This document shows positions 128 to 4,911 of a DNA stretch of 38,187 nt, in pieces. The stretch's first letter is position 1, and each line of letters starts with the position of its first letter. The stretch comes from a virus. The stretch covers positions 1 through 38,187 of IMG/VR virus record IMGVR_UViG_3300035670_000613; one strand, given 5' to 3'. The notes under the pieces are model-generated. The model did no database searches. It saw nothing but the letters and a program-made list of their open reading frames with translations, and was not told the origin of the DNA. The translations under genes were made by a program, and so were the position numbers.

Positions 128-153
128 ATAGTATCACGATTTAAACAATGCAA
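128..153 (-). promoter_or_regulatory. Candidate promoter upstream of the SprT-like gene
   Basis: On the - strand, TTGCAT (153-148) is followed by an extended -10-like TGATACTAT ending at 128, giving a -10 of TACTAT at 133-128. The spacing of 14 nt from TTGCAT is short, so the extended -10 would have to do most of the work. The segment 139-155 matches 15 of 17 bases with the spacer region of the stronger leftward promoter near 3223-3251, including the TTTAAA core. This is a weak call based on that similarity. Confidence 0.25.
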
Positions 154-322
154 GCACAGCATGGTAGAGGTCTGATGCAAGCCCCCTGCCATGGCACTCG
201 CCGGGGATGTACCCGGAGGGGGTCAGGAAGACTTCCCCACAACCTCCCCACCAGTCCAGCAAGACAACAAAAAGCCCTCCGGAGAGGGCTAGATAAAAGA
301 CAGCAATGCCGATGATTCTCAT
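134..322 (-). CDS. Small predicted membrane protein, 62 aa
   Basis: Start ATG at 322 overlaps the stop of the upstream gene as ATGA, with GGAGG 8 nt upstream. Residues about 3-24 (IIGIAVFYLALSGGLFVVLL) form one strongly hydrophobic segment, so the product is probably an inner-membrane peptide or has an uncleaved signal anchor. The rest is short and Gly/Cys-containing with no motif I recognise. Function unknown; membrane location is inferred from hydrophobicity. Confidence 0.6.
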   Translation of the reverse strand: MRIIGIAVFYLALSGGLFVVLLDWWGGCGEVFLTPSGYIPGECHGRGLASDLYHAVLALFKS

Positions 323-702
323 GCGTTTTCCTCCACGTTCTCAATGATTGACTCAGCGATCTCTTTAGTTTTCTTGCGATCGATCTCTTCCCCTCTACGT
401 TTAAACAGACGATCGACAATCTTCCAGTCGTCATCAATCACGTAGACCCCGTTGTCCCAGTTGTCGGTATCAGCGTTGCCGTACTCTTCCCGGTAGACAT
501 TCATGCCCACCGGGTTTTTAAAGAAGGCACGGGCTAGAACCTCCGCTAGGGCGTCCATGCGCTCCCGGTGATCTCCTTCTATCCCCAGGGCCTTAGCAGC
601 CCGTAGGAAGCCCTCTACCGAGGCCCTACCGCCATTCCAGTGGAGATAGATGCAGGGTGCTGTGGGGTGAGTCTTGAATGTAATGACTGCGCGGTTTCCC
701 AT
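319..702 (-). CDS. Conserved phage protein of unknown function (MGNRAVI type), 127 aa
   Basis: Opens MGNRAVITFK and continues with a Trp/His-rich stretch (CIYLHWNGG) and an acidic DNWDNGVYVIDDDW patch near residues 80-93. I recognise this N-terminus from hypothetical proteins in proteobacterial phages, but no function is established that I know of. The C-terminus (about residues 100-127) is charged and probably helical. AAGGAAGG precedes the start. It is coupled to the next gene by ATGA and contains a GTTTAAAC site at 399-406 (codons for LFKR). Confidence 0.75.
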   Translation of the reverse strand: MGNRAVITFKTHPTAPCIYLHWNGGRASVEGFLRAAKALGIEGDHRERMDALAEVLARAFFKNPVGMNVYREEYGNADTDNWDNGVYVIDDDWKIVDRLFKRRGEEIDRKKTKEIAESIIENVEENA

Positions 703-858
703 TTACTTTCCTTCCTTTTGTTTTGTTTTCTCACAATCAAAAAAAGCTTCCCAATCCTGGCGGTCTACCTTGATCCAGAGGGAATCCTCAAACTCCTCCA
801 TGACCTCGGCCTGCTCAAGAATGTCAAAGGCCAGTTCGATTTTTTTAAAGTCGTCCAT
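703..858 (-). CDS. Small acidic hypothetical protein, 51 aa
   Basis: A 51-codon frame from ATG 858 to TAA at 705-703, abutting the ATG of the following gene (702). GGAGG lies 7 nt upstream of the ATG. The product opens MDDFKKIELAFDILEQAE, is rich in Asp and Glu, ends in a Lys-rich tail (KTKQKEGK), and looks like two short amphipathic helices. The fit between neighbours without a gap supports it as real. Function unknown. Confidence 0.7.
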   Translation of the reverse strand: MDDFKKIELAFDILEQAEVMEEFEDSLWIKVDRQDWEAFFDCEKTKQKEGK

Positions 859-860
859 GA

Positions 861-1136
861 TTAAACCTCCGTATTAAAGTGTTTACGAACCAATGCAATT
901 GCCTCGGTGTAAAGAACCAATGCTTCTGCTCTGCGCTTGTTCAACTCCTGTTGAATGGACTTCTGATCCAACCCTAGATCAAGTAATGACCGGGTGGAGG
1001 CATCGTTCACAAAGACCAAGGCTTCGGCGAGTTTGCCGTAGGCAAGGTACTCAAGCGTTATGTCGTTCAGGTATGCGTACCCGTCCTTGACTTCGTTGAC
1101 TGCTTTGTCAGCAAGTTTTTGTGCTTCGGTTTTCAT
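861..1136 (-). CDS. Helical hypothetical protein, 91 aa
   Basis: Start ATG 1136 with GGAGG 8 nt upstream; it ends 2 nt before the next start. The sequence is almost entirely predicted helix with heptad-like Leu spacing (for example SLLDLGLDQKSIQQELNKRRAEALVLYTEAIALV at about 49-82, which exceeds a single helix). No catalytic or metal-binding motif is visible. Its place in the leftward operon suggests an early accessory role; function unknown. Confidence 0.65.
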   Translation of the reverse strand: MKTEAQKLADKAVNEVKDGYAYLNDITLEYLAYGKLAEALVFVNDASTRSLLDLGLDQKSIQQELNKRRAEALVLYTEAIALVRKHFNTEV

Positions 1137-1138
1137 CT

Positions 1139-1483
1139 TTAAGCCTCCAGGTTAAGTTGTTTAGCCAGCGCGGGGTGCAGGTACACCGAAGGTGTAGCGG
1201 GTTTACCAAGGAACGTCCCTACGCAGACGGCGTAGGTATCGGCATCCAGTTCCAGGACAGTCTCTGCCCTTCCGCCGTTGAACTGAGGGGCACCAGTCGA
1301 AGGGATATCCACAGGTCTACCGTCCTGCACCAGGATGTAGCTAGACCGTGAACCGCCATCCCAGTAGGTACCAGAACAGGTAACCCGTTGGGTAACAGTT
1401 ACGATGGTTTTGTGTTTCCGAGAGTTAACACCAGCCTGCTTTAACAGGGTCTGGATGATGGGGTCTTTAGCACTGACGATCAT
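1139..1483 (-). CDS. Hypothetical protein, 114 aa, mainly beta
   Basis: Start ATG 1483 with GAGGAGG 7 nt upstream, overlapping the previous stop as ATGA. The sequence contains a run of short beta-type segments (KTIVTVTQRVTCSGTYW at about 25-41; SSYILVQDGRPVDIPS at about 47-62) and a C-terminal pattern VYLHPALAKQLNL. It may be a small beta-barrel or a phage accessory factor. I do not recognise a family. Confidence 0.65.
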   Translation of the reverse strand: MIVSAKDPIIQTLLKQAGVNSRKHKTIVTVTQRVTCSGTYWDGGSRSSYILVQDGRPVDIPSTGAPQFNGGRAETVLELDADTYAVCVGTFLGKPATPSVYLHPALAKQLNLEA

Positions 1484-1701
1484 TTGTATGCCTCCTCGAT
1501 GGCCTTAGTTGCAACGCGGTTGGGGTTAGGTTCCTCGCAGACGCCCTCACCGATCAGGTGAGAGGCTGTCCTACCGAACCAGCCCTGAAGCTTCCAGGCC
1601 AGTCCGGTATCTATCAGGTACTGCCAAGCTTCGATGACCTGCTCTTCGGATTCGGCTTGCACAAAGCCTTCCGCAATGCCTACTGCGTCAAATGTATTCA
1701 T
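1480..1701 (-). CDS. Small conserved phage protein, 73 aa
   Basis: Start ATG 1701 overlaps the preceding stop (ATGA), and its stop overlaps the next start. The pattern AVGIAEGFVQAESEEQVIEAW followed by YLIDTGLAWKLQGWFGR resembles a short family I have seen in proteobacterial phages (possibly DUF7417, from memory). The core is two helices with a conserved LQGWFGRTA motif near residues 38-46. No biochemical role is known to me. Translational coupling places it inside the early operon. Confidence 0.7.
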   Translation of the reverse strand: MNTFDAVGIAEGFVQAESEEQVIEAWQYLIDTGLAWKLQGWFGRTASHLIGEGVCEEPNPNRVATKAIEEAYK

Positions 1702-1928
1702 GCTGCCTCCTGGGTTTCACGTTTAATTGCATTGATAGCATCTCGCTTGCCGCCATTGCCACTAACACGATTGGTAATGGCGTAGCCGTCACCTTGCGGT
1801 TCGCATTGGGTTGCCTCAAACGAGTAGTAGTACCGAAAACCGTCCATCTTGTTGCCAAGCCGGGATCGGTAAATCGTCACCGACCAGTTTTCATGGACGA
1901 AATGCGCCTCACCGCGAAAGAAATTCAT
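1698..1928 (-). CDS. Hypothetical protein, 76 aa
   Basis: A longer frame opens to 2054, but the ATG at 1928 is preceded by AGGAGG at good spacing and overlaps the upstream stop as ATGA, so 1928 is chosen. The product opens MNFFRGEAHFVHENWSVTIY and has alternating beta-type segments (GFRYYYSFEATQ), then a basic helical tail (KRDAINAIKRETQ). No recognised domain. Function unknown. Confidence 0.65.
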   Translation of the reverse strand: MNFFRGEAHFVHENWSVTIYRSRLGNKMDGFRYYYSFEATQCEPQGDGYAITNRVSGNGGKRDAINAIKRETQEAA

Positions 1929-2209
1929 GCTGCCTCCTGATCTTCTTGCTGCTCCTTGTTGAGTTGCTCCAGCCTCTCGGCAACCAGGGCAAACACCTGG
2001 GAGACGGCCTGCGCCACTTCCACCTGGGTTGCCCCAGGTTTCCAGCCGCCGCAACCGTAGTTCATGCTGATGTCCCGCACCCTGCCCCTGTAAAGCCGCA
2101 CGTTAATAACCGCAACTTCGTCCCAGTGGGTCTGGGGGCTAACGAAACGGTGATGCATAATCCCCGATCCAGTCGGGTCAATACTGCGAACGATGTTTTC
2201 TTGAATCAT
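1925..2209 (-). CDS. Hypothetical protein, 94 aa; first gene after the type I ribozyme
   Basis: Start ATG 2209 with AGGAGG 8 nt upstream. The N-terminal half carries HHRFVSPQTHWDEVAVINVRLYRGRV with a Gly/Cys stretch (MNYGCGGWKPG at about 49-59); the C-terminal half is a helical segment (VSQVFALVAERLEQLNKEQQ). Family not recognised. The hammerhead ribozyme at 2229-2278 cleaves 25 nt upstream of this start, so the processed mRNA would begin with a very short leader carrying only the ribosome site. Confidence 0.65.
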   Translation of the reverse strand: MIQENIVRSIDPTGSGIMHHRFVSPQTHWDEVAVINVRLYRGRVRDISMNYGCGGWKPGATQVEVAQAVSQVFALVAERLEQLNKEQQEDQEAA

Positions 2210-2228
2210 GGTAGAGCCTCCTGTGGTT

Positions 2229-2278
2229 GTCTGAGACCCCCGAAGGGGTTTCGGCTATTGAAGCCTCGTCAGTCAGAC
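2229..2278 (-). ncRNA. Type I hammerhead self-cleaving ribozyme
   Basis: Read on the - strand. Stem I is GUCUGA (2278-2273) with UCAGAC (2234-2229), 6 perfect pairs. The core CUGACGA is 2272-2266. Stem II is GGCU (2265-2262) with AGCC (2256-2253), loop UCAAU. GAAA is 2252-2249, of which the last A pairs with U2236. Stem III is ACCCC (2249-2245) with GGGGU (2240-2236), closed by a UUCG tetraloop. The cleavage nucleotide C17 is 2235 in a canonical GUC, so the cut falls between 2235 and 2234. All invariant hammerhead positions (C3 U4 G5 A6, G8 A9, G12 A13 A14, A15.1-U16.1) are present. Stem I is open, hence type I. The UGA stop of the upstream gene (2275-2273) lies inside stem I. Confidence 0.93.
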
Positions 2279-2476
2279 TGCTTTGGGTTCACCCCCAGTG
2301 CATTTCAAAAGATCGGAGAGAGGAACCATGATGGACTCATAACCTCCGCAATAAATCGATGCACAAGCCGAATGCCCATGCACCGTCTCTGGATGGATGC
2401 AAACGACAAAACCAGCGATGCGCCGGAATGCACCCGGTTTTGTTCGTACCTTGTCGCCTACTTGAATCTCGTTCAT
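2273..2476 (-). CDS. Small SH3/KOW-like hypothetical protein, 67 aa
   Basis: Start ATG 2476 overlaps the stop of the 36-aa gene upstream (ATGA). It opens MNEIQVGDKVRTKPGAFRRI, a pattern typical of small SH3- or KOW-like beta barrels, and ends in SDLLKCTGGEPKAV. Its stop codon sits in the 5' strand of stem I of the type I hammerhead, so ribosomes finishing this gene must open that stem. Fold inferred from the GDxVRxKxG pattern only. Confidence 0.65.
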   Translation of the reverse strand: MNEIQVGDKVRTKPGAFRRIAGFVVCIHPETVHGHSACASIYCGGYESIMVPLSDLLKCTGGEPKAV

Positions 2477-2583
2477 ACAGCCCCCTTCCGGTGTTTTTGT
2501 TTACGGGAATACTTGGTGCGAACGGTATGCCTCCCGGCACCGCAAGAGCGGGAGTGCTTCGCTACGAAATTACGCTGCTTCAT
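2473..2583 (-). CDS. Small basic phage protein (DUF7230-like), 36 aa
   Basis: ATG 2583 is preceded by GGAGG 8 nt upstream, and its stop overlaps the next ATG. The 36-residue product is very basic: MKQRNFVAKHSRS, then HTVRTKYSRKQKHRKG. The N-terminal R-N-x-V-A-K-H and the Arg/Lys/His-rich tail match a short family that recurs in many phages and that I recall as DUF7230. Net charge suggests nucleic-acid binding, but no function is established. Confidence 0.75.
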   Translation of the reverse strand: MKQRNFVAKHSRSCGAGRHTVRTKYSRKQKHRKGAV

Positions 2584-2585
2584 GG

Positions 2586-2660
2586 TCAAACCTCCATTAA
2601 TAGAACGATGCAGATAACTGCTATGTAAAAAGCGACAGCAATCAAAAGAATGTCCATCAT
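2586..2660 (-). CDS. Tiny single-span membrane peptide, 24 aa
   Basis: ATG 2660 (or the adjacent ATG at 2657) with GGAGG 8 nt upstream; the stop TGA at 2588-2586 lies just before the next gene. Nearly the whole peptide is hydrophobic (ILLIAVAFYIAVICIVLLM), i.e. one transmembrane helix with an Asp at residue 3 and a Glu near the end. It sits directly after a second tiny membrane peptide. Role unknown; candidates are membrane remodelling, superinfection exclusion or a holin-like accessory. Confidence 0.6.
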   Translation of the reverse strand: MMDILLIAVAFYIAVICIVLLMEV

Positions 2661-2671
2661 TCTTGAGCCTC

Positions 2672-2743
2672 CTAAAGAAAGAAAAGAATCATGACCTTGG
2701 CAAAGGTCAGCCAACATACTGTTCCGAAAATGAATGCCTGCAT
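2672..2743 (-). CDS. Tiny single-span membrane peptide, 23 aa
   Basis: ATG 2743 with GGAGG 6 nt upstream; TAG at 2674-2672, and the stop codon region itself forms the AGGAGG site of the next peptide gene. The product is hydrophobic and aromatic (MQAFIFGTVCWLTFAKV, then MILFFL), consistent with one membrane helix carrying a single central Lys. Existence is supported by spacing and ribosome site rather than by homology. Confidence 0.55.
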   Translation of the reverse strand: MQAFIFGTVCWLTFAKVMILFFL

Positions 2744-2758
2744 GGTGTTCCTCCCTGT

Positions 2759-2959
2759 TTAAACGATGAAGTCAGGATGGGTATCAATCCCCAAAGAAGA
2801 GGCCAGTGCTAGCATCTCTTCCTGATCCTTCCTGCGTAGTGCTGCCCGGATTGCTGCGGATATGGATCGAGCCGCATATCCCAGAATGTCCTGGTTGCCG
2901 GGGTTGGATTCAACGAACTGTTTTGCGTATCCGCAGACTCTCTGCTGGTGCTTGGTCAT
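2759..2959 (-). CDS. Helical hypothetical protein, 66 aa; first gene of the leftward operon
   Basis: ATG 2959 with AGGAGA about 6 nt upstream. The ribosome site lies just 3' of the type III hammerhead. The product (MTKHQQRVCGYAKQFVE..., then ARSISAAIRAALRRKDQEEM) is helical with alternating charged and small residues, ending at DTHPDFIV. Its stop codon is part of a GTTTAAAC site (2757-2764). Function unknown; it is the promoter-proximal early gene, a position often used for host-takeover proteins. Confidence 0.65.
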   Translation of the reverse strand: MTKHQQRVCGYAKQFVESNPGNQDILGYAARSISAAIRAALRRKDQEEMLALASSLGIDTHPDFIV

Positions 2960-2972
2960 AAAGTCTCCTGGT

Positions 2973-3022
2973 GGGTTTCGCCCTTATGGGCTCGTCAGTA
3001 CCAGTTCTGCACTGGTAGACCC
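2973..3022 (-). ncRNA. Type III hammerhead self-cleaving ribozyme
   Basis: Read on the - strand. GGGU (3022-3019) then C17 (3018), giving the GUC site; cleavage falls between 3018 and 3017. Stem I is UACCAGU (3017-3011) with ACUGGUA, 7 perfect pairs closed by loop GCAGA. The core CUGACGA follows directly, then stem II GCCC/GGGC with loop AUAA, then GAAA (2979-2976). Stem III is GGGU with ACCC (2976-2973), 4 pairs, and is open, hence type III. All invariant core residues are present. The ribosome site of the first leftward gene (start 2959) begins a few nt downstream, so this is a self-cleaving 5' leader; the 3' product would keep a 58-nt leader. Confidence 0.94.
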
Positions 3023-3222
3023 GATTTTGTTCACTAGAGACACATGTCCCTGGTTGGCGGTATTCCCAACCGTTGGAGCCTTCCCCCAACCGAGCCTTTG
3101 TTTAAGCCCCCAAAGTCCAGAGGGCACCCCATTCAACGCTGGGGCACTGCGTCTTCGATTCTGTAGATCCCGGTAGGTAAGTGGTGATCAGGTGAATCGG
3201 TACTGCTTACTGCTTAGACCGA
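3023..3222 (-). promoter_or_regulatory. Long 5' leader of the leftward early operon, no gene
   Basis: About 190 nt between the predicted leftward start site and the type III ribozyme contain no credible ORF on either strand. Several short inverted repeats are visible, for example GGTTGG (3052-3057) with CCAACC eight bases on, CTTTG/CAAAG around a C-rich loop near 3097-3116, and CCCC/GGGG near 3127-3145. I recognise no riboswitch or tRNA. The ribozyme would cut most of this leader off the mRNA. Confidence 0.45.
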
Positions 3223-4621: not shown

Positions 4622-4643
4622 AAACATACAGTAGTTGTAGAAT
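4616..4643 (+). promoter_or_regulatory. Candidate promoter for the winged-helix/terL unit
   Basis: TTGTTT (4616-4621), 16-nt spacer, TAGAAT (4638-4643; 5 of 6 consensus bases). The -35 half is weak and overlaps a GTTTAAAC site (4618-4625). The position directly after the terminator hairpin and about 30 nt before the ATG at 4672 is suitable. Confidence 0.35.
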
Positions 4644-4671
4644 GCGAGCGATATTCGCTTGGAGTCCCACG

Positions 4672-4911
4672 ATGCTATTCAAAATATCTAAGCCTCAACA
4701 GGAAGTTTATGAGTTTATTAGAGCCTTCATGAAGATCCATGGCTTCCCTCCGACTTACGACGAAATGGAGGAAGCATTGAAGAAAAGCAGAACGACTATC
4801 AATGGACACGTGAAGAGACTGAGAGCCAAAGGATTGTTATCAATCAAGGCTGATGCTGCTAGGGGTATTAGGTTGATTGATAGGTCTGCTAAGGCTGTGG
4901 ATCGACTTTGA
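4672..4911 (+). CDS. LexA-like winged-helix DNA-binding protein, 79 aa
   Basis: ATG 4672 is chosen over an in-frame ATG at 4642 because GGAG lies 7 nt upstream and 4642 overlaps the predicted -10. The pattern KPQQEVYEFIRAFMKIHGFPPTYDE (7-31), then LKKSRTTINGHVKRLRAKGLL (36-56) follows the LexA N-terminal DNA-binding domain closely, including the GFPPTYDEM turn and a recognition helix around TTINGHVKRL. There is no C-terminal self-cleavage domain. The stop overlaps the terL start. The likely role is a phage transcription regulator; a DNA-binding role in packaging is an alternative given its position between terS and terL. Confidence 0.75.
   Translation: MLFKISKPQQEVYEFIRAFMKIHGFPPTYDEMEEALKKSRTTINGHVKRLRAKGLLSIKADAARGIRLIDRSAKAVDRL

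Follow-up and report, generated by a model that had tools for sequence, protein, structure and literature searches.

The window, a stretch of 38,187 nt from the uncultivated bacterial virus record IMGVR_UViG_3300035670_000613, carries two hammerhead ribozymes on its minus strand, one of type III and one of type I, which probably separate the genes of a leftward, polycistronic phage transcript. Judged by their sequence, both are genuine self-cutting RNA motifs, with cleavage itself being predicted. The original prediction had proposed that the pair cuts a defined multigene RNA of 783 nt out of this transcript. The pair is best read as a further case of the widespread and already reported clustering of phage ribozymes between genes, not as a segment-excising machine, and the 783-nt RNA would be no more than the stretch between two gene-separator cassettes. 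The combination of type III with type I is unusual but lacks conservation. The features of the region, in the direction of transcription, are:

2973 to 3022, minus strand: type III hammerhead, predicted cut at 3018/3017, leader element preceding the first gene in the leftward operon (model R2; RF00008 below threshold)
2960 to 3017, minus strand: predicted processed 5' leader of 58 nt with a 5'-OH, comprising the remainder of the type III hammerhead and the Shine-Dalgarno (SD) sequence of the 66-aa gene (from sequence)
2759 to 2959, minus strand: gene for a 66-aa protein (open reading frame with SD)
2672 to 2743, minus strand: 23-aa hydrophobic peptide (open reading frame, SD GGGAGG)
2586 to 2660, minus strand: 24-aa hydrophobic peptide (open reading frame, SD GGAGG)
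2473 to 2583, minus strand: 36-aa basic protein, DUF7230 (Pfam PF23876, marginal at 28 bits against a cut-off of 27)
2273 to 2476, minus strand: 67-aa protein (open reading frame with SD)
2229 to 2278, minus strand: type I hammerhead, predicted cut at 2235/2234 (model R1; conserved in terminase relatives)
2210 to 2234, minus strand: predicted processed 5' leader of 25 nt, with SD AGGAGG at 2222-2217
1925 to 2209, minus strand: gene for a 94-aa protein directly 3' of the type I hammerhead (homologue in the same place in contig L019, 39% identity, E 5e-18)
134 to 1928, minus strand: remaining leftward operon, with genes for proteins of 76, 73, 114, 91, 51, 127 and 62 aa

The type III motif, which reads GGGUC^UACCAGU, GCAGA, ACUGGUA, CUGACGA, GCCC, AUAA, GGGC and GAAACCC in order (the caret marks the predicted cut), contains the core CUGANGA...GAAA, an NUH cleavage site and three helices, with stem III open. 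The same hammerhead core is present in the type I motif, which reads GUCUGA, CUGACGA, GGCU, UCAAU, AGCC, GAAA, CCCC, UUCG, GGGG and UC^UCAGAC and has stem I open and stems II and III closed. Covariance models of phage ribozymes from which the window had been left out detected both, with model R2 scoring the type III motif at 64.3 bits (E 4.1e-16) and model R1 the type I motif at 71.8 bits (E 1.2e-20). Neither hammerhead was reported over the window by Rfam at its gathering thresholds: RF00008 reached 34.8 bits (E 3.5e-5) on the type III motif, below its gathering score of 48.5, and the sole Rfam match for the type I motif was RAGATH-1 with an E value of 2.9, far under the cut-off. A motif scan that allowed all standard pairs identified just these two hammerheads in the 38 kb, compared with 0.07 per shuffled strand. 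The predicted presence of two minus-strand hammerheads of types III and I at 3022-2973 and 2278-2229 is thus borne out by sequence, scan and covariance models, and the 783-nt spacing given for the two predicted cuts is also correct. A secondary R2 match at 2294-2243 was rejected as a true type III hammerhead, since it coincides in part with the core of the type I hammerhead and lacks a proper cleavage triplet.

In local contexts of up to 250 nt, the ribozyme fold lies 0.0-2.5 kcal/mol from the minimum-energy fold. Compensatory helix changes amounted to 44 double-change cells for type I (10.4 in shuffled alignments) and 62 for type III (16.1 in shuffled alignments), counts that are partly circular since the sequences were gathered partly by pairing. 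In the positional relatives that were collected via the terminase, stem changes preserve pairing too.

The interval between the two predicted cuts contains five small genes as originally described, each confirmed as a reading frame preceded by an SD. The 36-aa protein is the only one of the five with a Pfam match above cut-off. A family search with the 66-aa protein gave nothing above cut-off, and the SH3-like label earlier attached to the 67-aa protein found no support in family searches. The description of the mRNA as early likewise gained no support. The 67-aa gene ends within the type I ribozyme, where its stop codon (2275-2273) makes up the three 3'-terminal nucleotides of the stem I 5' strand. 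A twin contig of 56.8 kb (L212) is identical to the window across 3 kb around the ribozymes and, separately, across 3083 bp at its left end, and has the same hammerhead pair and no further ones, an extra R2 match there overlapping the type I motif. The leftward operon continues in the twin with genes for an AAA_5/CbbQ_C ATPase and a CobT-like VWA protein. Further along, the twin encodes a tyrosine integrase at 452-1183 on the minus strand, and the phage may therefore be temperate.

The position of hammerheads relative to neighbouring genes follows a common rule across phages. The type I cut lies 20-31 nt ahead of an SD and ATG in 62 of 70 distinct cases, as compared with 3.6% of random nearby sites, and the type III cut lies 45-80 nt ahead of an SD and ATG in 44 of 53 (9.2% of random nearby sites). 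Furthermore, in 57/71 type I hammerheads the stop codon of the upstream frame coincides with one of five set positions counted from the core (-7, -6, -1, +3 and +13), where the upstream gene was taken as the longest open frame and some stop assignments may be wrong. On these stop and cut-to-start statistics, each ribozyme appears to form a stop-cut-SD-start cassette that goes with the downstream gene. This points to a single gene-separator role for hammerheads of types I and III, and likewise for those of type II in annotated cultured phages.

Each cassette lies behind a stop codon and ahead of the following SD, with the type III hammerhead placed at the operon head before the first gene. The emerging RNA would fold and cut itself, giving the next gene or gene block a fixed mRNA 5' end. 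Cleavage by the type I ribozyme would leave a short 5'-OH leader of ~25 nt on the downstream RNA, and cleavage by the type III ribozyme a downstream leader that retains the ribozyme hairpins, while the RNA upstream of the type I ribozyme would keep its stop codon and end in ribozyme hairpins and a 2',3'-cyclic phosphate. Hammerhead cleavage generates a 2',3'-cyclic phosphate on the upstream RNA and a 5'-OH on the downstream RNA. As 5'-OH ends are poor substrates for the 5'-monophosphate-dependent RNase E and 3' hairpins slow exonucleases, the cassettes would likely be used to uncouple the decay and expression of neighbouring blocks. We infer that cleavage affects mRNA stability or expression in this way, and that it takes place in vivo, the latter because comparable clusters were shown to be active (PMC3088659).

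Alternatively, the ribozymes might be regulated switches, in which cleavage answers upstream ribosome traffic or a cellular signal and alters expression during infection. Upstream frames stop within stem I or the core or adjacent to them, so that a ribosome at termination would sit on the ribozyme; however, stops are expected at these places in any compact phage genome, the core itself contains a UGA, and no sensor domain was seen. We consider regulation of this kind unlikely. It is likewise conceivable that the separators are gated by ribosomes, because upstream frames terminate at these very sites: ribosomes that finish translating the upstream gene may keep the ribozyme open, such that cleavage would report upstream translation. 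Although we regard such gating as quite improbable, it would let the translation load of the upstream gene decide what happens to the mRNA of the next one.

Conservation was assessed in 80 relatives that were chosen by terminase similarity, a route independent of hammerheads. Type I hammerheads were identified in eight of these, at ten loci that are all on the leftward strand (L015, L016, L019, L037, L054 and L065, and two each in L072 and L074, which resemble one and the same phage). In contrast, the model scan detected a type III hammerhead in 0/80, an absence that is informative only given several kb upstream of the terminase, where many of the 80 contigs are short. The original prediction of a dedicated excision of multigene RNA had named in advance the lack of one of the two ribozymes in related genomes as evidence against it, and the pair is indeed not conserved among the terminase relatives. 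In comparison with L015, L016 and L019, the ribozyme and its SD are conserved DNA (85-89%) and the flanking genes mostly differ. In L019, homologues of the window's 94-aa (39%) and 76-aa (55%) genes follow the type I hammerhead, a different first gene precedes it, and there is no type III hammerhead. Because synteny tracks the downstream gene and not the segment, we do not read the pair as an excision device. Many of the terminase relatives are without a hammerhead in the DNA examined, and the hammerhead therefore appears dispensable, a point against the separator reading. The closest terminases (57-59%) belong to 023Pt_psg01, the Pelagibacter phage HTVC027P and the lake phage DSL-LC04. No credible hammerheads were identified in the fetched stretches of these three phages and HTVC023P, and the window region had no match to the named phages by DNA similarity.

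The conservation of the type I hammerhead amid changing neighbour genes in several terminase relatives could also suggest that ribozyme blocks act as recombination linkers, i.e., short conserved blocks that let phages swap small genes without harm to the operon, with cleavage being incidental. In addition to the conserved ribozyme DNA between relatives with differing flanking genes, the stop codons that the cassettes carry in several frames would suit this function. However, the invariant catalytic core together with compensating stem changes argues for selection on folding and cleavage, and three topologies (types I, II and III) fill the same niche. A role as mere linkers is accordingly very unlikely in our assessment, and gene separation by cleavage remains the preferred reading.

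Same-strand arrays of two to five hammerheads are common in other viral contigs, as found by pattern scans that supplied a set of arrays including near-identical contigs and not a census. Among 62 adjacent same-strand pairs in this set, 54 were I-I, five were III-III and three were III-I, the last being those of the window, its twin L212 and contig L121. In L121, an independent type III-then-type I pair (651-999), 348 nt apart, surrounds one 80-aa gene. A mixed III-I pair as a recurrent design was rejected, since such pairs were confined to L121 and to the window and its twin. With two hammerheads on one strand flanking small genes, the window falls among clustered hammerheads, defined by at least two in such an arrangement. 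The cultured Streptomyces phages Spernnie (L213, NC_054659) and Diane (L214, NC_054663) contain nine type II hammerheads each, all above the Rfam cut-off, in arrays between the small genes of a leftward region. For 14 of these 18 hammerheads, an annotated start codon follows within 30 nt of the ribozyme end. As in the window, the arrays of Spernnie and Diane are on the same strand, between small genes, and most of their ribozymes directly precede the next start codon; they differ in their type II topology, in the nine copies per genome and in the unrelated host. No publication on these type II arrays was found among open-access papers. A BLAST search with a short query gave hits in 18 Streptomyces phage records, Spernnie and Diane among them. 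Cultured phages with nine copies each make the separator role directly testable.

The proposal that the III and I pair exists to release a discrete and possibly circular 783-nt RNA, with its ends ligated by RtcB or through the reverse hammerhead reaction, draws on the established hammerhead chemistry, which yields ligatable ends at both cuts. Furthermore, the 3' end GGGUC>p left by the type I ribozyme matches the substrate arm GGGUC of the type III ribozyme, so that re-docking is conceivable (pairing probability ~5%), and the pair in L121 is an independent instance of the same order. However, many type I hammerheads have a GGGUC end, and the ribozyme fold keeps the GGGU end in the UUCG hairpin. 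The suggested circularisation by an RtcB-type ligase is not backed by gene content, as no RtcB/RNA-ligase family was identified in the window, the twin or the array phages searched, although the records of the phage and its twin could lack part of the genome, and the host might supply a ligase. In the whole-segment fold, the 5' stem I hairpin has a probability of ~25% and the 3' stem III hairpin one of 14%; on account of these values, which weigh against the separator reading, the idea that the 783-nt RNA has stable hairpins at both ends was abandoned. Published tests on prophage clusters (Perreault et al., 2011; PMC3088659) detected neither circular nor spliced products. Together with the missing conservation of the pair, we consider excision as its purpose extremely improbable and retain the separator reading.

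The statement that no such phage system had been described does not hold in kind, as hammerhead clusters in prophages that flank genes or short gene blocks were published in 2011 (Perreault et al., 2011; PMC3088659). In that study (PMC3088659), cleavage in vitro was shown for three of the clustered arrangements, and for the Agrobacterium set also in E. coli, and processing into operon- or gene-length mRNAs was proposed. The window resembles these clusters in having several close hammerheads that flank small genes or blocks in phage DNA, with gene identities that vary, but, set against the text of that paper (PMC3088659), differs in its mix of type III and type I. In addition, the window phage is uncultivated and related by its terminase to DSL-LC04 and HTVC027P, and the stop-cut-SD-start rule was here measured across many phages. 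The HHphage ribozyme of the haloviruses HF1 and HF2 is similarly placed, with a hammerhead 13 nt upstream of the start codon of an early polycistronic transcript, whose mapped mRNA 5' end lies within three nucleotides of the cut (PMC3088659). Unlike the window pair, this ribozyme stands alone and not in an array, and its atypical core has an insertion near C3 (PMC3088659). In retrozymes and viroid-like circular RNAs, hammerheads likewise bound an RNA of several hundred nucleotides; these are, however, tandem copies of one ribozyme that give circles, whereas the window pair comprises two types around protein-coding sequence. A paper from 2023 reported that bacterial ribozymes are enriched near other ribozymes for unknown reasons (PMC10085705). 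Clusters of phage hammerheads have been known since 2011, and the separator rule proposes one role for them.

Upstream of the type III hammerhead, a sigma-70-like promoter was sought and none was found, which counts against the separator reading. The minus strand at 3050-3150, just upstream of this hammerhead, is strongly structured (fold z of -2.6 for 241 nt including the type III motif) and matches no known family. Type III leaders that share the window's stem I, TACCAGT/ACTGGTA, form a large family among the contigs of the pattern scan (L094, L100, L101, L107, L109, L111, L112 and many others), in which they precede the SD and start codon of differing genes.

The window contains 14 copies of the 8-bp palindrome GTTTAAAC, compared with 0.76 expected, for example at 2757, 3237, 3493, 4469, 4618, 9442 and 12855. 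It is present in many of the 80 terminase relatives, including L015, L016 and L019, at roughly 0.6-1.45 per kb, was counted 0 times in the array contigs L002-L010 and is near 0 in the named relatives. By its distribution, GTTTAAAC looks like a clade-specific site and is perhaps a candidate operator. The window also encodes, at 4642-4911 on the plus strand, an 89-aa protein that matches the phage transcriptional repressor family phrog_362 (E 8e-12), which is a candidate reader of this site.
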